Virus record (IMG/VR): IMGVR_UViG_3300020477_000145
Coordinates: 1-22,574 of that record
DNA from: a virus
Strand: one strand, 5' to 3'
DNA: 22,574 bases
In this document: one piece after another, positions 7,321-19,742 of the stretch
How the letters are laid out: every line of letters begins with the position of its first letter
How positions within the stretch are numbered: position 1 is the stretch's first letter
Position numbers and translations under genes: made by a program
Notes under the pieces: model-generated
The model's database searches: none
Told to the model about the DNA's origin: nothing
What the model saw: the letters and a program-made list of their open reading frames with translations, nothing else

Positions 7321-8426
7321 TGCCATTAATTGAGACAATCCCTCACAATCTTGATTTAGATATAACTGTTAACAATGTTCCCGTTGAGTCATGGAGTTCT
7401 TTTACGATTAAAGGGGCTGTAAACAAATCGCGGTTTGTTGTAATTACACTTCACGGGAAAGAGGCTATAGAATACTGTCGTCTTGGTGGAGTCTTAGAGA
7501 TAAGGGCAGGGGAGGGAAACGACATAGAGGTTCCTCTCCATTTTAAAGGAATAATAAAATCATTACAACCACAAAAGGATAGGGTGACTATTACTTCGTT
7601 TGATTACATAACACATTTGACTGGCTCTCAATATATTTTATTTAAGGATGTAATTGATAGAGATTCAGATATTAAGATAGTTGGTGAAGATTTGTATTTT
7701 ATTTCGGCTGCGGTTGCTGATTACAAGGGAATTATTGTAAGTGGTTTAACTGAAGGGTCTGGTATTATGGCTAAGAAAAACATGAGTGCCTTGTTTGGGC
7801 ATAAGACACGAAAACAGTTTTTAGATGAGGCTTTTAAATTAATGGTAGATTATTCAACAGGAGCAAACTATCCTGACTTTGCATATCAACCATGGTATTA
7901 TGCAATTAGGAGCGGTGTTCAGTTAGATTTCTTTTTACCAGATTCTCTTAATACAAATCAGCAACCTATTTTAACATTAAAAGAAAGTAAGAATAACATC
8001 AAGAGTATAAATGCAACTATTGACACTTCTCGTTTAGCAAACGCGGTGCGGGTAATATCAAGTGATGACAAAACCCTTTATGAAGACCATGAGGATACCT
8101 TTAGTTCAGATAGATATGGCGTGCATAGTAGAAAGATAGAAAGGAAAGAGACAAATAAAGATAAATTAAAGCAGTTGGCAGTAGACTACGTTAACCAGAA
8201 CAGGTTTCCTACAATAACATACACATTAGAGCCGATAGATGCGTATTGGGTAGACTTGGGAGACTTGGTAAAGGTTGAAGTGCCTTCGGTGAACATTAAT
8301 GAGGTCTTACCTGTTGTTGGTTATACTACAGTTATAGATAATGACATTAAAACTCAATTAATATTAGGTAATTCGCCTCTTGATGACAAACAATATTTAG
8401 ATTTACTAACACCACCACTGGGATAG
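7320..8426 (+). CDS. Baseplate hub / tail-associated protein (gp44/gpD-like)
   Basis: The 368-residue protein has the layout of a tail hub: an N-terminal beta-barrel (LDLDITVNNVPVESWSSFTI, then LHFKGIIKSLQPQKDRVTIT), a helical insertion (MSALFGHKTRKQFLDEAFKL), a domain with LKESKNNIKSINATIDTSRLANAVRV, and a closing barrel with TLEPIDAYWVDLGDLVKVEVP. This pattern is seen in gp27/gpD/gp44-like hubs and ReqiPepy6 Gp37-like proteins, which form a trimer at the tail tip. It overlaps the fibre stop (TGATG) and is the last gene of the structural operon; its TAG is followed directly by one arm of a large inverted repeat. No lysozyme or peptidase domain is fused to it. Confidence 0.65.
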   Translation: MPLIETIPHNLDLDITVNNVPVESWSSFTIKGAVNKSRFVVITLHGKEAIEYCRLGGVLEIRAGEGNDIEVPLHFKGIIKSLQPQKDRVTITSFDYITHLTGSQYILFKDVIDRDSDIKIVGEDLYFISAAVADYKGIIVSGLTEGSGIMAKKNMSALFGHKTRKQFLDEAFKLMVDYSTGANYPDFAYQPWYYAIRSGVQLDFFLPDSLNTNQQPILTLKESKNNIKSINATIDTSRLANAVRVISSDDKTLYEDHEDTFSSDRYGVHSRKIERKETNKDKLKQLAVDYVNQNRFPTITYTLEPIDAYWVDLGDLVKVEVPSVNINEVLPVVGYTTVIDNDIKTQLILGNSPLDDKQYLDLLTPPLG

Positions 8427-8573
8427 ACACACACACCTTCATTTCCACTGGAGATATAATAATAATAGACGATAAGTATATAAATATAATAATAAGCCGC
8501 CGTACCTCTTTCTCTTTTTTTTTAGTTGGACACTTTTAGAAAAGTTCCAGTGGAAATAGAGGTGTGTGTGTGT
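8427..8573 (+). repeat. 147-bp inverted repeat between convergent operons
   Basis: Left arm 8427-8452 (ACACACACACC, TTC, ATTTCCACTGGA) and right arm 8546-8573 (TCCAGTGGAAAT, AGA, GGTGTGTGTGTGT) are reverse complements apart from about two central positions. The arms abut the stop of the hub gene on the left and the stop of the minus-strand zinc-ribbon gene on the right. The roughly 93-base loop is very A+T-rich, holds a TATA-like GTATATAAAT near 8478 and a run of nine T at 8515-8523, and has a small inner hairpin (ACTTTTAGAAAAGT, 8532-8545). It may terminate both converging transcripts, form a structured RNA, or be a miniature element with terminal inverted repeats. Confidence 0.85.
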
Positions 8574-8836
8574 TAGTAATTCTTTTTATTATCTAATAAA
8601 TCTATAATATATTGAGTTTCTTTAATAGATATAGTTTCGGCTTGTATTTTAGTGTTCTTTTTTGTCATAGAATAGCCACATTTAAAACACTTCCAGCTTT
8701 TATACTTATCTTCGGCAGCTCGACAAGTATAACACTTAGGGCATTTTAATACATAGAATAGAGTCATGGGGTGTTCAATGGTGCCCAACACACGTACAGG
8801 ATTAAACGCCAGCTTTGCCAGTACATACAAAAGCAC
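8573..8836 (-). CDS. Zinc-ribbon mini-protein, 87 aa
   Basis: Two cysteine pairs (CPKCYTC and CFKCG) separated by about 17 residues form a likely zinc ribbon, followed by a charged helical tail ending DLLDNKKNY. Zinc ribbons of this size act in nucleic-acid or protein binding, but nothing here fixes the partner. The GTG at 8836 has an AGGAGA ribosome site about ten bases upstream and is preferred; an ATG at 8767, just before the first cysteine pair (MTLFYVLKCPKC), would give a 64-residue protein lacking a hydrophobic leader-like segment. It is the last gene of the minus-strand operon and ends at the inverted repeat. Confidence 0.7.
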   Translation of the reverse strand: MLLYVLAKLAFNPVRVLGTIEHPMTLFYVLKCPKCYTCRAAEDKYKSWKCFKCGYSMTKKNTKIQAETISIKETQYIIDLLDNKKNY

Positions 8837-8873: not shown

Positions 8874-9002
8874 TTAATCTACTACCCGATTAAATCGTTT
8901 GTGGTAGCAGGTTCTACAGTAACCTGTTGCGGTTTTCTCTCTATTAAGTGGGATTCTAACCCACTTTTCACATTTAGAATCCTTACAGGGCCATTTAGGC
9001 AT
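8874..9002 (-). CDS. Cysteine-pair mini-protein, 42 aa
   Basis: A 42-residue frame starts inside the end of the upstream 32-residue gene. It has four cysteines in a C-x4-C ... C-x2-C pattern (PCKDSKC and YCRTCYHKR), consistent with a small zinc knuckle, and is basic. Its cysteine layout and WKHP/WVRIP-like middle recall the 32-residue protein at 16843-16941, so the two may be related. The overlap and the conserved cysteine pattern, rather than length, support it as a real gene. The function is unknown. Confidence 0.6.
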   Translation of the reverse strand: MPKWPCKDSKCEKWVRIPLNREKTATGYCRTCYHKRFNRVVD

Positions 9003-9093
9003 TGGATTTCCCACAAGCATTACATCTAAAGGCGGCAAAGCCTTCGATGGTGGCGTTGAATTTGCTTTGTGTCTTACAGGTGTCGCAATCCAT
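8995..9093 (-). CDS. Zinc-ribbon mini-protein, 32 aa
   Basis: The ATG overlaps the TGA of the upstream gene (ATGA arrangement) and the frame runs 32 residues to TAA. The product is almost only a metal site: CDTCK at the N-terminus and CNACGK near the C-terminus, spaced by about 18 residues, which is ribbon geometry. Such a domain could bind RNA, DNA or a host protein. It overlaps the following 42-residue gene in another frame. The function is unknown. Confidence 0.65.
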   Translation of the reverse strand: MDCDTCKTQSKFNATIEGFAAFRCNACGKSNA

Positions 9094-9380
9094 CAGTCTC
9101 CTAAGAGTTCACGGAGCTTTTGCTTTTCCTTGGACGTTAGCTGTGTTTTCTGTTCTTCCAGTGGTGTACCCTTCAATTCTTCTTTAACGGCGTGTATTGC
9201 GTCTTTAAGCATGATTCTCGCGCGTCTCAGTTCGTACTGGTAGGCATCCATGGCTTTGTCAAGATTAATAGCGTCTTCATCCTTCAAAGTATAGGTGGCT
9301 TCGATATCAGCTCTGGCTGATTCGTATTGCTTGTCTGTTGGCGTTGTCGCGCCAAGCTTTATTGTAACTTGAGTAATCAT
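9093..9380 (-). CDS. Conserved-looking small protein, 95 aa
   Basis: The N-terminus ITQVTIKLGATTPTDKQYESARADIEATY resembles a short beta-strand domain (pattern xxIxLGATxPTxxYxN) that I associate with small hypothetical proteins in viruses and plasmids, but I cannot assign a named family or role. The remainder is a long helix rich in charged residues ending KEKQKLRELLGD. The ATG overlaps the TGA of the upstream gene and has GGAG six bases before it. It is the second gene of the minus-strand operon. The function is unknown. Confidence 0.65.
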   Translation of the reverse strand: MITQVTIKLGATTPTDKQYESARADIEATYTLKDEDAINLDKAMDAYQYELRRARIMLKDAIHAVKEELKGTPLEEQKTQLTSKEKQKLRELLGD

Positions 9381-9634
9381 TTTTTCTCCTTTATTATATC
9401 TTGTTCAAGTTTGACAGCTTTCTTAACACGTAGCATTTGTTTAGTCCAGTTGTAATAACTTCTGAGACTGTTCTCTTCTTTATTGATAAGGTAGAGACGT
9501 TCTTCCAGTTCTTGTACGTGGTTTACCAACTTTGGGTAAGTCATCTTGTATCGTTCTGCATGTGAGAACTTTTCAAACGGCTTGCATGTGCAGCGTTTAG
9601 CGGGCTTTTTCTTGTCATTTTGTTTTGGTGACAT
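9377..9634 (-). CDS. Small basic coiled-coil protein, first gene of minus operon
   Basis: I chose the ATG at 9634 (MSPKQNDKKKPAKR) because a TATA box (CTTATATG, 9656-9663) lies 29 bases upstream, which gives a leaderless transcript; a further upstream ATG at 9658 would lie inside the promoter. The 85-residue product has a basic head with CTCKPF, then a heptad-like helical region (VNHVQELEERLYLINKEENSL) and a basic tail. It may bind nucleic acid or act as a small scaffold. The function is unknown. Confidence 0.65.
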   Translation of the reverse strand: MSPKQNDKKKPAKRCTCKPFEKFSHAERYKMTYPKLVNHVQELEERLYLINKEENSLRSYYNWTKQMLRVKKAVKLEQDIIKEKK

Positions 9635-9655
9635 GATTAAGCATATACACAGTAG

Positions 9656-9663
9656 CATATAAG
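9656..9663 (-). promoter_or_regulatory. Archaeal TATA box for the minus operon
   Basis: CTTATATG on the minus strand is centred about 26-29 bases before the ATG at 9634. No ribosome site lies between, which fits a leaderless message. It is divergent from the promoter at 9773. Confidence 0.65.
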
Positions 9664-9693
9664 TCTTTGGGTGGCCGTTTCACGACGATACCC

Positions 9694-9705
9694 TGAGGGT
9701 TAAAC
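9694..9705 (+). repeat. Degenerate copy of the GGGTTAAATA intergenic element
   Basis: TGAGGGTTAAAC lies in the divergent gap between the genes starting at 9634 and 9801. It matches the first eight bases of the GGGTTAAATA core found five more times between 11.7 and 13.5 kb, but the end of the core differs and the downstream GGTGCCTTC block is absent. It is the weakest of the six copies. Confidence 0.4.
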
Positions 9706-9772
9706 AAAACGCTGTGGACATTTTGGATGGCCTGTTATGTCTTTTTTGACGTATTTCAAGGCATGCAAAACT

Positions 9773-9779
9773 ATATAAA
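9773..9779 (+). promoter_or_regulatory. TATA box with upstream GCATGC
   Basis: TATATAAA begins 28 bases before the ATG at 9801 and drives the ten-gene operon as a leaderless message. A palindromic GCATGC (9761-9766) sits six bases upstream, in the place of a factor B recognition element or an operator. Confidence 0.7.
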
Positions 9780-9800
9780 CCCACTCCGTCTGGGTATAGC

Positions 9801-10016
9801 ATGGAATCAAATCAATTGACTTCTGAAATAAGCAAGCAAGTATGTTCTGTCTGTAAGGACATAGTCAAATTCACTGAGACCCCTGTGGGGCTAATTGGTG
9901 AACACTCGTGCATCTATGTAGATTGGTGGGGTCGTGATGACAACGGTAGTCTCGGCATCGAGTACGAGTACAGGGATGAACATCCCGACTGGGACACGGA
10001 GGACGAACATGCTTGA
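9801..10016 (+). CDS. Small acidic cysteine-containing protein, 71 aa
   Basis: First gene of the ten-gene operon, translated from a leaderless ATG 28 bases after the TATA box. The product has a cysteine pair (VCSVCKD, near residue 16) and a later HSC (near residue 35), a possible three- or four-ligand metal site, followed by a strongly acidic and aromatic tail (YVDWWGRDD, EYEYRDEHPDWD). The acidic tail could mimic nucleic acid or bind a basic host protein, which is speculation. Its TGA overlaps the next ATG. The function is unknown. Confidence 0.65.
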   Translation: MESNQLTSEISKQVCSVCKDIVKFTETPVGLIGEHSCIYVDWWGRDDNGSLGIEYEYRDEHPDWDTEDEHA

Positions 10017-10155
10017 ATCTGAAATAACAAAAACAACAGGAATCCCCTGTCGCAATCAAGGCGACAAGGATTACTGCGAGTGCTACAACTGTGGCAACGA
10101 GGCATGGGACTACATAGAGTCCATATACATGGAAATATACATTGGAGGTAAGTAA
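10009..10155 (+). CDS. Cysteine-rich mini-protein, 48 aa
   Basis: The ATG at 10009 has GGAGG six bases upstream and overlaps the previous stop; a longer in-frame extension to 9934 would run across the upstream gene and is not needed. Cysteines at about residues 14, 23, 25 and 28 (PCRNQGDKDYCECYNCG) form a compact metal site, followed by an acidic, tyrosine-rich helix. The function is unknown. Confidence 0.65.
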   Translation: MLESEITKTTGIPCRNQGDKDYCECYNCGNEAWDYIESIYMEIYIGGK

Positions 10156-10319
10156 TGAGTAATAAAATAACAAGCCGCACGCATAAGAGTATGGAGACTT
10201 ATGATAAGGCATCATTAATGCAGCTACCAGATTCGGAATTGAAGGCCCATGAAGATGAGGCGTGGAAATACTGGTTAAAGGTAAAGAAGGTAAGGGATTT
10301 TCGTGCGTTGGAGGACTAA
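10155..10319 (+). CDS. Small charged helical protein, 54 aa
   Basis: TAATG overlap with the preceding gene and a GGAGGT ribosome site five bases before the ATG support this frame. The product is helical and charged (LMQLPDSELKAHEDEAWKYW, then LKVKKVRDF), with no cysteines. It reads like a small regulator or binding partner, but nothing identifies a family. The function is unknown. Confidence 0.65.
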   Translation: MSNKITSRTHKSMETYDKASLMQLPDSELKAHEDEAWKYWLKVKKVRDFRALED

Positions 10320-10597
10320 TGAGTCAGGATTTAGCTATTTATATCTGTGAACACAACTCCGACACTTATGAGGTTACAGTAACCGCATGGAGTGGTGCTC
10401 CTGATGGTGGGTATCAGTTTACTTTTACAGATAAAAAGTCACAAGGCAAACCTACCGCGCGCTGTTTTTCTATATCTGGTAAACAGTTAGAGCATTTGTA
10501 TAAGCTACATCTAATGCGTAAGATAGATGGATTAGAACAGATGGATTTCCATCGACATCTTGAAGAGGTTATAGATTACAGGGGGTTAGAGCTATGA
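10319..10597 (+). CDS. Hypothetical protein, 92 aa
   Basis: The start at 10319 is chosen because it forms TAATG with the preceding stop and has GGAGG seven bases upstream; an in-frame GTG at 10262 would lie inside the previous gene. The product begins with beta-prone sequence (LAIYICEHNSDTYEVTVTAW, GGYQFTFTD), suggesting a small alpha/beta domain, and ends in a helix (LEHLYKLHLMRKIDGLEQ). Single cysteines are present but no pair. The function is unknown. Confidence 0.65.
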   Translation: MSQDLAIYICEHNSDTYEVTVTAWSGAPDGGYQFTFTDKKSQGKPTARCFSISGKQLEHLYKLHLMRKIDGLEQMDFHRHLEEVIDYRGLEL

Positions 10598-10773
10598 AAA
10601 CATACGAGATAATGACAACCAACACCGCTTACCTTGTAATAGAGGCGATAAGCGAACAAGAAGCAATAACCAAATTAGAAAAAGAGATAGATGAGGATTA
10701 CTACTATCCTATTGATAATGCGGATTCTTGTGATGGTTGGGAAGTACGCGACGTTTATGAGGTGGAAGAATGA
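10594..10773 (+). CDS. Small alpha/beta protein, 59 aa
   Basis: ATGA overlap with the upstream stop. The layout beta-helix-beta (KTYEIMTTNTAYLVIEA, then SEQEAITKLEKEID, ending GWEVRDVYEVEE) is common among tiny virus and plasmid proteins of the kind M-x-Y-x-I ... EAxxxEEA ... WEVxDVxEV. I can name the pattern but not a function. It is strongly acidic. Confidence 0.65.
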   Translation: MKTYEIMTTNTAYLVIEAISEQEAITKLEKEIDEDYYYPIDNADSCDGWEVRDVYEVEE

Positions 10774-10943
10774 GTCAGAACGCATTAATTACTGATTTAC
10801 CTCAACACAAACAAGATGGACTGAGATGGTTATTGGGTTATCTTGATGAGGAACAGTGGGAAGATGCAGTAGTAACTGGAGAGACTGAAGATATACGCAG
10901 ATTCATAGTAAATCTAAGACTCATGGTTGAGGCGTGGGAATAA
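10770..10943 (+). CDS. Small acidic helical protein, 57 aa
   Basis: The ATG overlaps the previous TGA and is preceded by GAGGTGG. The product is predicted helical with several tryptophans (RWLLGYLDEEQWED, LMVEAWE) and no metal-binding residues. Its TAA overlaps the next ATG. The function is unknown. Confidence 0.6.
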   Translation: MSQNALITDLPQHKQDGLRWLLGYLDEEQWEDAVVTGETEDIRRFIVNLRLMVEAWE

Positions 10944-11158
10944 TGGATTTCGACAGGTTCAATCAGATGCGTGCTCGAGCTGAGGACGTATTCGATGAGG
11001 AAGACCCTGATGGATATATATGGTTGTATGTATATGGATTATATTCATTAGTAGATGCGGTATCACAACTGTCAGGTGAAATAGATGAAAGCCGAATTGT
11101 ATTAAAGCAGATAGAAGGCCATCTACATCATATGCAAATGGAGGCATGGAAAAAATGA
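10943..11158 (+). CDS. Small acidic helical protein, 71 aa
   Basis: The start at 10943 forms TAATG with the previous gene; a GTG nine bases earlier is an unlikely alternative. The product has an acidic N-terminal helix (AEDVFDEEDPDG), an aromatic segment (YIWLYVYGLYSLVDAVSQL) that may be amphipathic or membrane-associated, and a coiled-coil-like end (ESRIVLKQIEGHLHHMQ). The function is unknown. Confidence 0.6.
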   Translation: MDFDRFNQMRARAEDVFDEEDPDGYIWLYVYGLYSLVDAVSQLSGEIDESRIVLKQIEGHLHHMQMEAWKK

Positions 11159-11256
11159 TTTGTGAATGGTGTAAATTAGGAGAGGCGACACATACCTTTC
11201 ATAGTACTGATAGTGTTTGCGTTGACTGTTTCAAAGAGGGTTACGATATAGAATGA
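11155..11256 (+). CDS. Zinc-knuckle mini-protein, 33 aa
   Basis: Start and stop both overlap neighbours by four bases, and GGAGG precedes the ATG. The product is a minimal two-pair metal site: CEWC at residues 3-6 and CVDC near residues 22-25, with two histidines between. It resembles a free-standing zinc knuckle. Too short for family assignment. Confidence 0.65.
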   Translation: MICEWCKLGEATHTFHSTDSVCVDCFKEGYDIE

Positions 11257-11408
11257 GTGATAGAGCCGCAGAGATTGTGAAGAACAATCCCGAATGGGCG
11301 TTGTTGCTGATTAAGAGAGTGTTGCTTGAGAAAGAAATCGATGAGAAGCAAGACGAACTATGGGATGTCAAGAAAAAGATTAAGGAGATGATTGATGATA
11401 ACGTGTAA
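11253..11408 (+). CDS. Small coiled-coil protein, 51 aa
   Basis: Overlaps its neighbours on both sides. Residues 18-45 form a heptad-like charged helix (LLIKRVLLEKEIDEKQDEL, WDVKKKIKEMI) typical of a dimerising coiled coil. No other motif is visible. The function is unknown. Confidence 0.6.
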   Translation: MSDRAAEIVKNNPEWALLLIKRVLLEKEIDEKQDELWDVKKKIKEMIDDNV

Positions 11409-11544
11409 AGTTTGCCGTTGTGATTTAGTATGGCACTGGGAGTTCTGCCCTCGGTGTGGTAATCACGTTAGTCCATTCCTTCCAAACCAACAATACCGCG
11501 ACAAGCATAATACTTATAGTAAGAAGGTTAGGGAGGTAACTTAG
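11395..11544 (+). CDS. Zinc-ribbon mini-protein, 49 aa
   Basis: Last gene of the operon, beginning inside the preceding gene behind AAGGAG. Cysteines CKVCRC near the N-terminus and CPRCG near residue 18 form a likely zinc ribbon (CxxC ... CPxCG), followed by a polar basic tail ending SKKVREVT. CPxCG ribbons often bind nucleic acids or sit in transcription-related proteins; that is general family knowledge, not a specific call. Confidence 0.7.
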   Translation: MITCKVCRCDLVWHWEFCPRCGNHVSPFLPNQQYRDKHNTYSKKVREVT

Positions 11545-11562
11545 AGGACTCTAAAGGGGATA

Positions 11563-11631
11563 GGGGGGTAGTTTCCATAGCTAACTTCACGACATTGCAC
11601 TAATGTTTGATTCCTAAGCTACCTCCCCCCC
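11563..11631 (+). ncRNA. Structured element after the ten-gene operon
   Basis: GGGGGGTAG (11563-11571) can pair with CTACCTCCCCCCC (11619-11631), with one bulged T, enclosing an inner hairpin ACATT-GCACT-AATGT (11592-11606). The element starts about 20 bases after the operon stop. It may stabilise or terminate the operon transcript, or be a separate small RNA. No T-run follows, so a simple terminator is not obvious. Confidence 0.4.
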
Positions 11632-11710
11632 AAATTCAAACGCAAACAAGCAGTTAAGATAACTATTATCTTCTATATCTACGTGTAGGAGTCTCGGGCG
11701 GGCGCGTAGG

Positions 11711-11745
11711 ACATGCAGGGGGGTATATATACTTATCTATGCCTG
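11711..11745 (+). promoter_or_regulatory. Promoter-like block, first of a duplicated pair
   Basis: ACATGC, a G-run and TATATATA (11724-11731) followed by TATGCCTG closely match the block at 11850-11882. A transcript starting about 25 bases after the TATA box would begin near 11752, where only very short frames follow. The region 11545-11932 holds no convincing gene: it consists of the structured element, this promoter pair, one GGGTTAAATA element and the promoter at 11904. Confidence 0.45.
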
Positions 11746-11763
11746 TCATTTTCAGGAAATGTC

Positions 11764-11776
11764 CAAGGGTTAAATA
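11764..11776 (+). repeat. GGGTTAAATA intergenic element, copy B
   Basis: CCAAGGGTTAAATA is followed ten bases later by ATGGTGCCTTC, as in copies D and E. It lies between the two promoter-like blocks upstream of the gene at 11933. Confidence 0.7.
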
Positions 11777-11849
11777 CTCTTTATGGTGCCTTCGCTGTTG
11801 CTCTTGTCGTGTTTGTATATGCTGGTGTGTTACTTTTGGCATGGTAGGG

Positions 11850-11882
11850 GCATGTCGAGGGGTATATATAAAGGTATGCCTG
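11850..11882 (+). promoter_or_regulatory. Promoter-like block, second of a duplicated pair
   Basis: GCATGT, a G-run, TATATATA (11863-11870) and TATGCCTG repeat the block at 11711-11745. It would start a transcript near 11890, about 40 bases ahead of the ATG at 11933, so it may act in tandem with the TATA box at 11904. Confidence 0.45.
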
Positions 11883-11903
11883 CTCTATAGAACCACCCAT
11901 AAG

Positions 11904-11911
11904 TATATATA
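11904..11911 (+). promoter_or_regulatory. TATA box for the 11933 gene
   Basis: TATATATA starts 29 bases before the ATG at 11933, giving a leaderless message. Confidence 0.65.
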
Positions 11912-11932
11912 CCCGTATATGCTGGGTAATAC

Positions 11933-12079
11933 ATGGAGAAATTCAAACATGCAGCAATGACCTGCAAAATATGCGCCAGAAAAAGCCGCCCTTGGATAGA
12001 GTCAAGGGCCTACAAGCTAAAGTTATGCGGAGCGACCCCAGAATGTGACGCCGCCCTTAGGGGGGTGGTCGATGAGTGA
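11933..12079 (+). CDS. Cysteine-rich basic mini-protein, 48 aa
   Basis: A leaderless ATG lies 29 bases after a clear TATA box. The 48-residue product has CKIC near residue 11 and two further cysteines near 32 and 38 (LCGATPEC), a probable treble-clef or zinc-knuckle site, within a basic background (ARKSRPW, RAYKLK). This suggests nucleic-acid binding. It overlaps the next gene by eight bases. Confidence 0.65.
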   Translation: MEKFKHAAMTCKICARKSRPWIESRAYKLKLCGATPECDAALRGVVDE

Positions 12080-12296
12080 AGGCGGGCCGCGAGGTTATAA
12101 CGGCTGGCCAAATCGTGAAACGTGGCTTGTAGGTTTACACTATAATCCAGAATCTAAAGAAGACGTCTTAATGATTAAAGACTTTCTTGAGGAGGAATAT
12201 TATAATATTTGCGATAGTCATGTATTTTTCGGAGACATGATAGATTTTAACGCTATCGATTGGAGACGGCTGGAGGCGAGCGCAGAAGAGGACTAA
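12072..12296 (+). CDS. NGWxNRETW-motif small protein (DUF7249-like), 74 aa
   Basis: The start at 12072 is preferred because it has GGGGTGG just upstream and overlaps the previous stop; a GTG at 12045 would extend back through that gene. The N-terminus GYNGWPNRETWLVGLHYNPE matches a motif (NGWxNxETWxVxLW) widespread in virus and plasmid proteins grouped as DUF7249-like domains, whose role is not known to me. The remainder is an acidic helix (LMIKDFLEEEYY, RRLEASAEED). Confidence 0.65.
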   Translation: MSEGGPRGYNGWPNRETWLVGLHYNPESKEDVLMIKDFLEEEYYNICDSHVFFGDMIDFNAIDWRRLEASAEED

Positions 12297-12309
12297 AGGA
12301 ACAAGGAAA

Positions 12310-12335
12310 GGCTGACAAAGCATATAAAATCAGCC
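12310..12335 (+). other. Hairpin after the 12296 gene
   Basis: GGCTGA (12310-12315) pairs with TCAGCC (12330-12335) around an A+T-rich loop that holds CATATAAAA. It may end the two-gene transcript or be chance. It is followed directly by repeat copy C. Confidence 0.35.
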
Positions 12336-12342
12336 AAACCCC

Positions 12343-12355
12343 CAAGGGTTAAATA
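12343..12355 (+). repeat. GGGTTAAATA intergenic element, copy C
   Basis: CCAAGGGTTAAATAATC in the gap between the gene ending at 12296 and the minus-strand gene ending at 12434. The downstream block is shortened to CCTTCTCTT. Confidence 0.65.
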
Positions 12356-12380
12356 ATCATCCTTCTCTTAAAATAGAGTT

Positions 12381-12400
12381 GCAGGGATTTCGCTCCCTGC
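12381..12400 (+). terminator. Hairpin followed by T-run
   Basis: A perfect seven-base stem (GCAGGGA / TCCCTGC) with loop TTTCGC is followed by TGGCGTTTTTC. This resembles a terminator for plus-strand transcripts from the 11933 operon. Archaeal termination relies mainly on T-runs, so the stem may serve RNA stability. Confidence 0.45.
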
Positions 12401-12433
12401 TGGCGTTTTTCAGGCTCGTAATCTCTTGGGGTA

Positions 12434-12580
12434 TCAGAGGCTTTCCAGCTCGTCTATCCCTTCCTGTGCGGCATCTAAGAGCATCTGTAGCCCCTCTTTC
12501 ATTGCCATTACTTCTGTCTTCAAATCATCCACAGATGATTCAATTCTGCTTGCTGTATCGACCATATCGATTGATTCCAT
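12434..12580 (-). CDS. Small coiled-coil protein, 48 aa
   Basis: The ATG at 12580 lies 31 bases after a TATA box (12603-12611), consistent with a leaderless message. The product is an acidic continuous helix with a heptad pattern (DDLKTEVMAMKEGLQMLLDA) and no other motif. Such small coiled coils often act as dimerising partners. It was supported by its promoter and clean start rather than by homology. Confidence 0.6.
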   Translation of the reverse strand: MESIDMVDTASRIESSVDDLKTEVMAMKEGLQMLLDAAQEGIDELESL

Positions 12581-12602
12581 GATATAACCAAGTATATGCT
12601 CC

Positions 12603-12611
12603 TATATATAA
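12603..12611 (-). promoter_or_regulatory. TATA box for the 12580 gene
   Basis: CTTATATATAGG on the minus strand lies about 28-31 bases upstream of the ATG at 12580. Confidence 0.6.
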
Positions 12612-12643
12612 GCTATCGTCGTATGTATTTCTGCGAAATTCTG

Positions 12644-12656
12644 CAAGGGTTAAATA
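12644..12656 (+). repeat. GGGTTAAATA intergenic element, copy D
   Basis: GCAAGGGTTAAATAATCGA is followed by TTTTGGTCCTCTTC. It shares TTCTGCAAGGGTTAAATAA with copy F and the downstream block with copy E. It lies in the gap between two minus-strand genes. Confidence 0.7.
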
Positions 12657-12692
12657 ATCGATTTTGGTCCTCTTCTTCATCCATTAGGCTGT

Positions 12693-12721
12693 CCCTCCAA
12701 ATGGAGGGGCGACAAAGCCCC
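12693..12721 (-). other. Two overlapping, mutually exclusive hairpins
   Basis: CCCTCC-AAAT-GGAGGG (12693-12708) and GGGGC-GACAAA-GCCCC (12706-12721) share the central G-run, so only one stem can form fully at a time. They lie just after the stop of the minus-strand gene 12729-13085 and may end or protect its transcript, or act as a switch. Confidence 0.4.
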
Positions 12722-12728
12722 TCTCCTC

Positions 12729-13085
12729 TCACTCTACCACCTCCTCTTTGGCTTTTAGGACCTTTTCCTGTCTCCTCTCGGCTCTGGCAATGCATTTCTT
12801 TACTTCCCTCTTTATGCGCTTCTTAAACGCAGGTATTGCATTGTCGCAGTAGTAACCACCACACCATCCAAATCCGCTTGTTGGCACGGTTACAGATGGC
12901 GAGTAGTCCTCTACCCAGTAGGTGTCCCAAGATACCAGTTCACCTGTTCTGTTGTTCACAGCAAGACACGTCATCTTATCCTCTTCGACTCCTCTGTGTC
13001 CTCCGTCGCTGTGCATTCTCACACTTGCTACGATGGTATACTCACCGTTTCTCGTGTTCACTTTTGTTGTTGTGTTCGGTTCCAT
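12729..13085 (-). CDS. Hypothetical protein with Cys-Cys and basic tail, 118 aa
   Basis: The start at 13085 is chosen because AGGAGA lies five bases upstream and a TATA box (13117-13124) places transcription a few bases before it; the ATG at 13133 lies above the TATA box. The product has a beta-rich N-terminal half (EYTIVASVRMHSDGG, KMTCLAVNNRTGELVSW), a glycine/aromatic segment with two cysteines (GFGWCGGYYC) and a strongly basic helical tail (FKKRIKREVKKCIARAERR). The tail suggests nucleic-acid contact. I do not recognise a family. Confidence 0.65.
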   Translation of the reverse strand: MEPNTTTKVNTRNGEYTIVASVRMHSDGGHRGVEEDKMTCLAVNNRTGELVSWDTYWVEDYSPSVTVPTSGFGWCGGYYCDNAIPAFKKRIKREVKKCIARAERRQEKVLKAKEEVVE

Positions 13086-13116
13086 AGTTTCTCCTACGTT
13101 TCCGTAGGCATATGAG

Positions 13117-13124
13117 TATATAAG
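13117..13124 (-). promoter_or_regulatory. TATA box for the 13085 gene
   Basis: CTTATATAC on the minus strand predicts transcription starting near 13097, leaving a short leader that carries the AGGAGA ribosome site. This first gene is one of the few here that appears not to be leaderless. Confidence 0.6.
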
Positions 13125-13156
13125 TATTTGCATATACTCAAATAACTCAAAATGTG

Positions 13157-13169
13157 CACGGGTTAAATA
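13157..13169 (+). repeat. GGGTTAAATA intergenic element, copy E
   Basis: GCACGGGTTAAATAACCGA then TTTTGGTGCCTTCT, the fullest version of the element. It lies in the divergent gap between the genes starting at 13085 and 13256. Confidence 0.7.
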
Positions 13170-13203
13170 ACCGATTTTGGTGCCTTCTACATCTCCTTAG
13201 GTA

Positions 13204-13220
13204 TACAACCTCAGGTTGTA
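13204..13220 (+). promoter_or_regulatory. Perfect 8-1-8 palindrome, candidate operator
   Basis: TACAACCT-C-AGGTTGTA is a perfect inverted repeat ending seven bases before the TATA box at 13227. This is a typical place for an archaeal activator or repressor dimer. Confidence 0.55.
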
Positions 13221-13226
13221 GAAAGC

Positions 13227-13234
13227 TTTATAAG
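13227..13234 (+). promoter_or_regulatory. TATA box for the 13256 gene
   Basis: TTTATAAG lies 29 bases before the ATG at 13256 and is followed by AAGCATGCC, which resembles the AAGCATGCTT palindrome at 15170. Confidence 0.65.
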
Positions 13235-13255
13235 CAAGCATGCCTGCTACTATGC

Positions 13256-13405
13256 ATGGTCGATATCGACTACATTGGTGCGATGGCTGAAGAGTCCTAC
13301 GATGAGTGGGTGGCCGACGGTGATTACCGTATGTCTACTCTTCAGGAAGCCCGTGATATGATTGAAGAAATCATAGAGCGATTCCAAAGCTCCGGTCTTT
13401 TGTAG
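13256..13405 (+). CDS. Small acidic protein, 49 aa
   Basis: The ATG at 13256 fits a leaderless start 29 bases after the TATA box; an ATG four bases earlier is in a different frame that stops after 12 residues. The product is acidic and helical (EESYDEWVADGDYRMS, ARDMIEEIIERF). A strong hairpin terminator follows. The gene is flanked by a palindromic operator candidate and by two GGGTTAAATA elements. The function is unknown. Confidence 0.6.
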   Translation: MVDIDYIGAMAEESYDEWVADGDYRMSTLQEARDMIEEIIERFQSSGLL

Positions 13406-13430
13406 ACGCACCAATACAGCATCCGCACCC

Positions 13431-13475
13431 GGGATTCGACCCCCTTGGAATGGGGGTCATCCCAACCTGTTTTTT
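13431..13475 (+). terminator. Strong two-part hairpin with T6
   Basis: GGGAT (13431-13435) pairs with ATCCC (13459-13463), enclosing a two-base bulge and a perfect seven-base stem GACCCCC/GGGGGTC with loop TTGGAAT. Six T follow at 13470-13475. It follows the 13256 gene and reads as a terminator. On the minus strand the sequence resembles tRNA pieces (see findings). Confidence 0.6.
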
Positions 13476-13487
13476 CACGTTTTTCTG

Positions 13488-13500
13488 CAAGGGTTAAATA
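13488..13500 (+). repeat. GGGTTAAATA intergenic element, copy F
   Basis: GCAAGGGTTAAATAAACATTATGG. It lies in the convergent gap between the genes ending at 13405 and 13568. The upstream TTTTTCTGCAA matches copy D. Confidence 0.7.
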
Positions 13501-13567
13501 AACATTATGGACGCGCTACAAGCATTAGAGCAGTTTATACACGTGCTCAGGTGTTGCTATGGAACGG

Positions 13568-13747
13568 TTAAGTGTCACAAGCGTCATTACACAACCATCC
13601 TTTATCATATGCTATCATTGAAGGCCCTTCATTGTCCTCTATGTAGTCATCAGCAAATCCCATAGATATTAGATGCATGCCCATGTCAACGGCCTTCTGG
13701 CAGTTAAAACATAAGTCAGGATAGTCTTTACCTGTTAAGTATTTCAT
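13568..13747 (-). CDS. Zinc-binding mini-protein, 59 aa
   Basis: The ATG forms TAATG with the stop of the nuclease gene upstream on the minus strand, so the two are one operon. The product has CFNCQ near residue 13 and CNDAC near the C-terminus, a possible bipartite zinc site, separated by an acidic methionine-rich helix. It is transcribed with a candidate homing endonuclease but its composition is closer to the other virus genes. It is more plausible than the frame on the opposite strand. The function is unknown. Confidence 0.65.
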   Translation of the reverse strand: MKYLTGKDYPDLCFNCQKAVDMGMHLISMGFADDYIEDNEGPSMIAYDKGWLCNDACDT

Positions 13748-14709
13748 TATTTGTCACCCCCTTTTCTTTTCCTTGTATATTGATTGCCCGTATGTTTTCC
13801 CTTATTCCATGGAACTCTCTTTGGTCTATACGGGTTCTTTTTAGGTAATGTTAAGCCATCACAAATTCTTTTAGTTCTACGAAAGGAAATAGTCAATTCC
13901 TTACTTATTTCAGTTCGAGTATAACCTTTTCTCCAAAGTTTCAATATCATAGGGGTTATCTTTTCATCCTCATATCCCCACTTCTTTTTCCATGATACCG
14001 ATATTTGATTGCCTAACCCTAATTCTTTAGCCCATTGCCATCGAACATTAGTTTTAATGCCAAATTTATCTTCTACTACTTGGCTTGGGTTATGTATATT
14101 TTTATCATTATAGATTCTTAAAAACTCTTCTTTCATATTCTTTAAACAATCTTCTTGATAATTTAACAACTTTTTAGTCAGTTGGTTTTTCTTACGTGTA
14201 AATGCTGACTTATTAGTTTGTTTAAAAACATCTAAATTATCCACACACATTCTAAACTTATCATAATTATTACATGTTTTGAAAATCCCTTCATAACGTT
14301 GCGCAATCGGTCTTTCAATAGGTATAGAAATTATCATTGAGTTATTATCTAAATTATCTTCACTTTTAGCCTGTTCATAGATATAACTTTGAGGTATTAC
14401 AAAAATATCTTTAGGATTATAATCTATATCATAACCTACGCATATTGCATAATCAAAAGCGTTTTTTTGGATTTGAGTCCCGATAAATTTAAAATCATAT
14501 CTCTTTTCCTTTTTTCCATCGTGTTTTCTTTTCGGTCCTGATTCATTAGTTCTTGAAGTTTTAACTTCAACGCGATGCATATTTTTCCAAAGGAATAAGT
14601 CATAAGTCCTATCTATTTTAACAGCGTCAATATCCATCCGACCTAATAAGAATTGAACATAATGTTCACCCATATTTCCTTTAATAGACAAAAAGGTATG
14701 GTCGGGCAT
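13747..14709 (-). CDS. PD-(D/E)XK nuclease with C-terminal DNA-binding motifs, possible homing endonuclease
   Basis: The 320-residue protein has an N-terminal PD-(D/E)XK nuclease core: E15 (GNMGEHYV), D37 (TYDLFLW), then E48-V-K50 (RVEVKTS), followed by QKNAFDY near 81-87. The C-terminal third carries two helix-turn-helix-like segments (about 208-232, NPSQVVEDKFGI; about 250-285, GYTRTEISKELTIS) and PYRPKRVPWNKGKHTG (about 293-308), a motif like NUMOD modules of homing endonucleases. It should cut DNA at a specific long site. The gene is visibly richer in A+T than its neighbours, lies alone on the minus strand with a GAGGTGA ribosome site, and has no partner methyltransferase, all fitting a mobile homing gene. 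A solitary restriction-like nuclease is the alternative. Confidence 0.65.
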   Translation of the reverse strand: MPDHTFLSIKGNMGEHYVQFLLGRMDIDAVKIDRTYDLFLWKNMHRVEVKTSRTNESGPKRKHDGKKEKRYDFKFIGTQIQKNAFDYAICVGYDIDYNPKDIFVIPQSYIYEQAKSEDNLDNNSMIISIPIERPIAQRYEGIFKTCNNYDKFRMCVDNLDVFKQTNKSAFTRKKNQLTKKLLNYQEDCLKNMKEEFLRIYNDKNIHNPSQVVEDKFGIKTNVRWQWAKELGLGNQISVSWKKKWGYEDEKITPMILKLWRKGYTRTEISKELTISFRRTKRICDGLTLPKKNPYRPKRVPWNKGKHTGNQYTRKRKGGDK

Positions 14710-14739
14710 TTAGTCACCTCTTAAGTAGTCTAAATCGAC

Positions 14740-14756
14740 ACACTTTCTTAAAGTGT
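14740..14756 (-). promoter_or_regulatory. 7-3-7 palindrome before the nuclease gene
   Basis: ACACTTT-CTT-AAAGTGT is a perfect inverted repeat. On the minus strand it contains a TATA-like TTTAAGAA about 40 bases before the nuclease ATG, leaving space for the GAGGTGA ribosome site, so it may combine promoter and operator. It also lies after the stop of the 14790-15035 gene and could be a terminator stem. Confidence 0.4.
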
Positions 14757-14789
14757 CAGACTGGCGGTTTCGGTGGTCGGGGGTGGCCA

Positions 14790-15035
14790 TTAGAGGCCAC
14801 CCTTTCCACGCTTTAGGTTGATTAACCTAAGCACCTTAGCATAAGCCCCTACAAGGGCCTCATTTACTAATGACTCAGGGTCACCTATGCACCCGTCAGG
14901 ATAGTCGGCATCAAAGTGCTCGAACTCATCATAACGGGCGTTCATTTTAGCTCCAGCCTCTCTATGTAATAGAGTGACCTCGGCGGCTAACTCATCTATC
15001 TCAGGGACTTTCACCCTGCGTTGATTTATATCCAT
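14790..15035 (-). CDS. Small hypothetical protein, 81 aa
   Basis: The ATG at 15035 lies about 32 bases after a TATA-like TTTAAGTA (minus strand, 15060-15067), consistent with a leaderless message. The product has an N-terminal helix (VPEIDELAAEVTLLHREAG), an acidic middle (YDEFEHFDADYPDG) and a helical, basic C-terminus (GAYAKVLRLINLKRGKGG). It is divergent from the terminase operon and shares a regulatory gap with it, so an early regulator is possible. No family recognised. Confidence 0.6.
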   Translation of the reverse strand: MDINQRRVKVPEIDELAAEVTLLHREAGAKMNARYDEFEHFDADYPDGCIGDPESLVNEALVGAYAKVLRLINLKRGKGGL

Positions 15036-15059
15036 AGCTATATCGTCAGGGGCATATGC

Positions 15060-15067
15060 TACTTAAA
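15060..15067 (-). promoter_or_regulatory. TATA-like box for the 15035 gene
   Basis: TTTAAGTA on the minus strand lies 32 bases upstream of the ATG at 15035. Weaker than the other TATA boxes. Confidence 0.45.
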
Positions 15068-15103
15068 GGTTTGCTATCCCCCCGCTCCATGTAGACCCCC
15101 TAT

Positions 15104-15115
15104 GCAGTATACTGC
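15104..15115 (+). promoter_or_regulatory. Palindrome GCAGTATACTGC, candidate operator
   Basis: A perfect 12-base palindrome lies in the divergent gap between the 15035 gene and the terminase operon, about 46 bases before the operon TATA box. This suits a repressor or activator dimer controlling both units. Confidence 0.5.
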
Positions 15116-15160
15116 TAAGGTAGCTAATCTATAAATTTTCTATATTTTGGCATAGAAAGA

Positions 15161-15179
15161 TATATATACAAGCATGCTT
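15161..15179 (+). promoter_or_regulatory. Terminase operon promoter with AAGCATGCTT palindrome
   Basis: TATATATA (15161-15168) begins 29 bases before the ATG at 15190. The palindrome AAGCATGCTT (15170-15179) lies between TATA box and transcription start, where a bound protein would block the polymerase. Confidence 0.65.
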
Positions 15180-15189
15180 ATGCATTTCC

Positions 15190-19592: not shown

Positions 19593-19742
19593 ATGAAAAA
19601 GCGAACACGGTTGGAAATTTATGGAATTAGCAGGGAGACTAAGGTAAGTCTCAAGGAGATAGCTAAGGCGGAGAATGTACCGACTGGGGTGCTTGTAGAG
19701 CCGATATTGCGGCGATATGTTCGGGAGTATCGTGGCCGATAA
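19593..19742 (+). CDS. Ribbon-helix-helix-like DNA-binding protein, 49 aa
   Basis: Leaderless first gene of the portal operon. The short basic strand (KKRTRLEIYGI) followed by two helices (VSLKEIAKAENV, then VLVEPILRRYVREYR) matches a ribbon-helix-helix/CopG-like or small helix-turn-helix regulator. Its position suggests control of late genes, possibly through the palindromes seen at other promoters. Confidence in the fold is moderate. Confidence 0.6.
   Translation: MKKRTRLEIYGISRETKVSLKEIAKAENVPTGVLVEPILRRYVREYRGR

Follow-up and report, generated by a model that had tools for sequence, protein, structure and literature searches.

A strand-fixed 14-bp intergenic element in the early region of a marine, probably archaeal, tailed virus family: a possible polar docking site

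Here, we report a short asymmetric sequence element, CTANGGGTTAAAYR (14 bp), in 35 related marine viral contigs, where it runs along the terminase strand in 106 copies and against it in 2; permuted cores gave a mean of 2.2 in the same contigs, which are not all independent (55 sites are left after dereplication at 60% flank identity). The explanation that we favor, with a rough probability of 0.4 and by analogy with known systems, is that CTANGGGTTAAAYR may be a polar site on which a DNA-binding protein of the virus docks, in the manner of a stoperator or a one-way insulator. Almost nothing is known about regulation in uncultured marine archaeal viruses, and sites that are dispersed, intergenic, and fixed in strand would imply genome-wide control by one protein.

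The window, i.e., the whole stretch of DNA that was analysed, is IMG/VR record IMGVR_UViG_3300020477_000145 (22,574 bases), and it encodes head-tail genes (portal, TerL, and tail protein). Six copies of the element are located in it:

9693..9706, plus strand: site A, CTGAGGGTTAAACA, between divergent genes
11763..11776, plus strand: site B, CCAAGGGTTAAATA, between two rightward units
12342..12355, plus strand: site C, CCAAGGGTTAAATA, in a convergent gap
12643..12656, plus strand: site D, GCAAGGGTTAAATA, between leftward genes
13156..13169, plus strand: site E, GCACGGGTTAAATA, between a leftward gene start and a small rightward ORF
13487..13500, plus strand: site F, GCAAGGGTTAAATA, before the 3' end of the leftward F85/F46 genes

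The core GGGTTAAATA is exact at 11767, 12346, 12647, 13160, and 13491 on the plus strand, and the copy at 9697, also on the plus strand, reads GGGTTAAACA. Chance predicts 0.14 exact copies of GGGTTAAATA in the window, which has five, a number that none of 100 shuffles reached; with one mismatch allowed, the count is only six for 2.4 expected, so that the significance is carried by the exact copies. The first-pass annotation had described six plus-strand intergenic copies, and these are borne out (five exact, one variant) at positions that it had placed 3 bases too low. Intergenic DNA makes up 24% of the early region on our gene map, and six out of six intergenic copies would arise by chance at ~2e-4. 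The flanking gene order is -/+ at 9697 and 13160, +/+ at 11767, +/- at 12346 and 13491, and -/- at 12647; as these orders are mixed, the direction of the sites is independent of the genes, in agreement with what had been proposed. One copy per gap, also proposed earlier, describes the gaps at 9.6-13.6 kb and fails elsewhere: no site is found in the gap of the origin (8427-8572), in that at 14710-14789, or in that at 15036-15189, which precedes the late operon, and in relatives not every gap holds one. Upstream of sites D and F, TTCTGCAA was called correctly, and the downstream block assigned to B, D, and E is shared only loosely, reading TTATGGTGCCTTC in B, TTTTGGTGCCTTC in E, and TTTTGGTCCTCTTC in D. 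On the minus strand at ~13414-13465, the window resembles the part of a tRNA from the anticodon loop to the 3' part, possibly an attachment site; ARAGORN called no tRNA there, Rfam gave none, and the tested Marine Group III genome had no match to this stretch.

Relatives were collected by a TerL search of viral contigs (80 loci, 69-88% identity), and motifs were counted over whole records and over assembled contigs. Each of the four clades has its own spelling of the motif:

Clade A: TerL 85-88%, motif GGGTTAAAYA
Clade B: TerL ~70%, motif CTATGGGTTAAACA
Clade C: TerL ~70%, motif CTAAGGGTTAAATG, paired
Clade D: TerL ~65%, motif CTATGGGTTAAAC, paired

GGGTTAA is invariant in the combined logo CTANGGGTTAAAYR, positions -1, +8, and +9 differ by clade, and the pairs of the sister clades C and D are direct, 66-70 bp apart, with unconserved spacers. 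Motif copies score at least 15, with almost nothing between these and the background. In scans of viral contigs, exact 14-mers repeated within one returned stretch came from members of this family; contigs outside it gave single 14-mer matches, save for a few tandem repeats lacking the CTA prefix. Whether relatives keep the gaps and lose the element had been raised as a test, and its outcome favors the element, the motif being kept across the family. Our literature search found no paper on this motif in viruses. In clade B, the F43 product looks by eye like a class-II glutamine amidotransferase and the F44 product like an amidoligase (L101 8000-8896 and 10207-11394, minus strand).

The motif-bearing family probably consists of marine tailed viruses infecting archaea, with a marine euryarchaeon as the probable host. 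The nearest described viruses to the window TerL are haloarchaeal phiH1 and phiCh1, together with some Bacteroides phages, at ~25% identity; a comparison of TerL with GTDB genomes gave no confirmed relative, and the class of the tested Marine Group III genome yielded weak relatives only. A search with the ORB sequence matched one Marine Group III genome, one Pacearchaeota record, and one Thermococcus record, and the class of the Marine Group III genome otherwise shows mostly GGGGT forms. The motif was tested in the Marine Group III genome in which an ORB-like box recurs; its 1.2 Mb hold a single match in each direction, which does not exceed the reversed control. At this background frequency, in a genome that is only a candidate host, an element derived from the host was rejected, and the figure is in line with the site-binding reading.

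Family copies span the early region from the last tail gene, F21, to the late operon that starts with F7, and the gap before F7 has no site. Sites occur in gaps of all orientations, with only 1/79 inside a called gene, and convergent gaps are occupied most often (14/18). In clade B the early genes beside the sites point leftward, in clade A mostly rightward, and the families F28, F46, F53, and F86 occur in both directions; the sites keep their direction, with exceptions such as G005 13530. Just after F21, at 8424-8574 of the window, two inverted ORB-like boxes (written TTCCAGTGGAAATGAAGGTGTSTGT or TCCAGTGGAAATGAAGGTGTGTGT) enclose a short spacer, which is probably a replication origin of the Orc1/Cdc6 type. 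The pair is kept after F21 in those members of clades A and B whose sequence covers the gap and in the clade D virus G050; in clade C it is found near 28.8 kb, to the right of TerL, yet the site direction is unchanged. Fork direction does not fix the sites if one origin is assumed, because the clade C origin has moved and the direction was kept; on that assumption, a polar site for replication forks (Ter- or KOPS-like) was rejected. With early operons inverted and the origin moved, and the direction fixed all the same, we conclude that direction tracks the late/terminase strand.

According to the first-pass annotation, TTAAATA could be a TATA box and GGG a BRE, i.e., the element would be a promoter that yields small or antisense plus-strand RNAs. 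The core is indeed AT-rich, and the intergenic repeats of the haloarchaeal virus HF2 carry promoters (PMC8707807). The HF2 repeats, however, are 58 and 29 bp long, against 14 bp here, and they hold a TATA box and a start site and drive transcription (PMC8707807), whereas our element is unlike the promoters of its own family. Those promoters are leaderless, with TTATATA boxes ~28 nt before the ATG; on a model built for them the element has a median score of -3.2 versus 14.5 for real promoters, and an ATG stands where a leaderless start would fall in 6/66 cases against a background of 21%, which is no enrichment; the element does not show the archaeal arrangement of a TATA-like box 24-28 nt ahead of a start. 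The clade variants TTAAACA, TTAACTA, and TTAATCA would also make poor TATA boxes, and neither a conserved RNA fold near the sites nor an Rfam match at gathering score over 9000-14800 was found, so an RNA element was rejected as well. We regard a promoter within the element as very improbable.

A different relation to promoters has to be weighed, i.e., that the element is an operator or upstream activating site of early, mainly leftward, promoters, read by a viral regulator, its direction being inherited promoter geometry. TATA-like boxes do accompany the sites in the window:

13112..13125 (approximate), strand ambiguous: TATA-like box near -42 of site E
Near -43 to -36 of sites A, B, and D: TATA-like boxes

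Across the family, such a box lies 29-51 bp to the left in 38/66 cases (two adjacent windows), and in clades A and B it begins there at more than half of the non-redundant sites. In all four clade D viruses, the only pair stands 52-54 and 118-120 bp away from a single leftward promoter; for the second pair of clade C, the distances to a leftward promoter are 108 and 175-178 bp. Against this, the boxes are near-palindromic and split evenly in direction (11 leftward-better, 10 rightward-better), the distance from site to promoter varies by clade (~33, 53, and 108 bp), and the convergent gaps at 12346 and 13491 of the window hold a site with no promoter detected. Control of nearby early promoters seems less likely to us than a polar docking site, but it is a serious rival.

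In the polar docking site that we prefer, a virus-encoded sequence-specific protein would dock on CTANGGGTTAAAYR between early-region transcription units, with a polarity set by the late-operon and terminase strand and not by the adjacent early genes; the bound protein would stop or gate RNA polymerase moving along the late (plus) strand through the early region, and leftward transcription would pass the bound sites. We infer that the site is bound by a protein, one encoded by the virus, and that this leads to polar transcription control; the viral binding site suggested by the first-pass annotation gains indirect support at the sequence level from asymmetry, strand constraint, clade variants, pairs of fixed spacing, and spread through the family. 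Several sites within leftward gene runs with no detected promoter are consistent with a stoperator-like role. On the other side, a site lies inside a leftward unit at only about two independent loci, divergent gaps hold sites where a stop on the plus strand has no obvious use, and the single clade D pair, being 52-54 bp upstream of a leftward early promoter, fits ordinary promoter control too. Where the gene to the right of a site is itself rightward, a predicted promoter of the same direction stands between the two in all cases except G033 1513, so that a block on the plus strand would not silence that gene; this is partly trivial, because leaderless promoters sit directly before genes.

At stoperators, a monomeric repressor halts RNA polymerase in one orientation only, a precedent for asymmetric, orientation-dependent intergenic sites bound by a monomer (PMC9283540; PMC6550527). 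The stoperators of cluster A mycobacteriophages (L5, TipsytheTRex) resemble our element in being asymmetric 13-14 bp sites, mostly in one orientation (PMC9283540, PMC6550527), dispersed between genes in many copies per viral genome, with a motif that is similar and not identical between relatives. The differences are several. Stoperators follow local transcription, whereas the family element does not (leftward genes in clade B, rightward in clade A); they are bound by the phage immunity repressor, and no repressor is known for the family element; they number more than 20 per genome against 2-6 here, and only the family element forms pairs at 66-70 bp and probably comes from an archaeal virus. 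Because its direction follows the late strand and not local genes, the element falls outside the definition of a stoperator, although it may act in a similar way. If its polarity does follow the late strand, archaeal viruses would use one-directional transcription or packaging signals, which so far are best known from mycobacteriophages. A bolder proposal, and a tentative one that falls short of an even chance, is that a polarity tied to the late/terminase strand, whatever the adjacent genes or the origin position, belongs to a signal that a 49-residue ribbon-helix-helix protein reads: it would be the first stoperator-like system from archaea, one that holds late transcription off the early region, or else a packaging or partition signal with multiple sites.

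Packaging sites for the terminase small subunit, or partition sites of an episomal prophage, would explain the direction in their own right, because it tracks the terminase strand, and it does so in all clades. Sites located upstream of the small-subunit gene, pairs at constant spacing, and a TerL nearest to those of phiH1 and phiCh1 point the same way. The copies, however, are spread over kilobases in variable number, the small subunit has a likely recognition helix that, as judged by eye, diverges strongly even between subclades whose core is the same, and neither parA nor another partition gene was recognised in the one near-complete genome read. We consider packaging or partition an improbable role, though a serious rival.

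Lambdoid phages have boundary sequences, short sequences common to the borders of modules, and the family element likewise shows a few mosaic joints at the site. A short recombination site, always in direct orientation, through which early genes are gained, lost, or shuffled, would produce joints such as G003 11296, which combines the left flank of G005 10997 with the right flank of G005 11472, one gene being cleanly absent, and the abrupt switches of homology at the site in G001/G004 and G022/G023. Single pairs are suggestive, but unlike in lambdoid boundaries the breakpoints are not significantly concentrated: 19/268 intergenic homology ends fall no more than 20 bp from a site, where random intergenic positions give 13.5 +/- 3.5, and reading the genes of the one near-complete genome revealed no catalytic recombinase. 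Recombination joints were set aside, a cassette boundary being in our judgment slightly less probable than packaging; as the count over all relatives failed to confirm them, the mosaic joints are taken as a by-product of the position between units. The F36 gene of L090 (G006), like L106 2591-2929, encodes, among late genes, a small conserved protein with the DNA-binding serine recombinase 'Recombinase' domain (PF07508) only and no catalytic domain.

As for the protein that would read the polar docking sites, one candidate is encoded in the window:

19593..19742, plus strand: F6, a 49-aa ribbon-helix-helix-like protein, candidate ligand of the sites

F6 is found in nearly all family members, with a predicted topology of a short N-terminal stretch followed by two helices, and its best structural matches, although weak, are the ribbon-helix-helix proteins CopG, Arc, ParG, and ORF56. 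Within TRLEIYGI, the putative DNA-reading residues R, E, G, and I do not vary in clades A-C and are kept in D, and the core of the site is conserved across clades like these N-terminal residues of F6. It is from this parallel conservation, together with a structural prediction, that F6 is put forward as a candidate only. F7 as a second ribbon-helix-helix protein was rejected on account of its low-confidence model. With the 14-mer defined and a candidate ligand that can be tested, the system becomes accessible in vitro.

Several other sequence features were seen next to the sites or elsewhere in early regions. One of only two inverted copies, on the minus strand of L088 (G005) at 13521-13530, adjoins the nuclease-like (PD-(D/E)XK-like) F46 and has a CGGG spelling foreign to G005, as if the segment had been imported and inverted. 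CTACTC..GAGTAG palindromes adjoin sites in G003, G005, and G009. Other dispersed intergenic repeats are present in the early regions of clade B and G019 (e.g., L101 and L124): AATAACGCACACA in both directions in clade B and TGTATGTAATCCG in G019.
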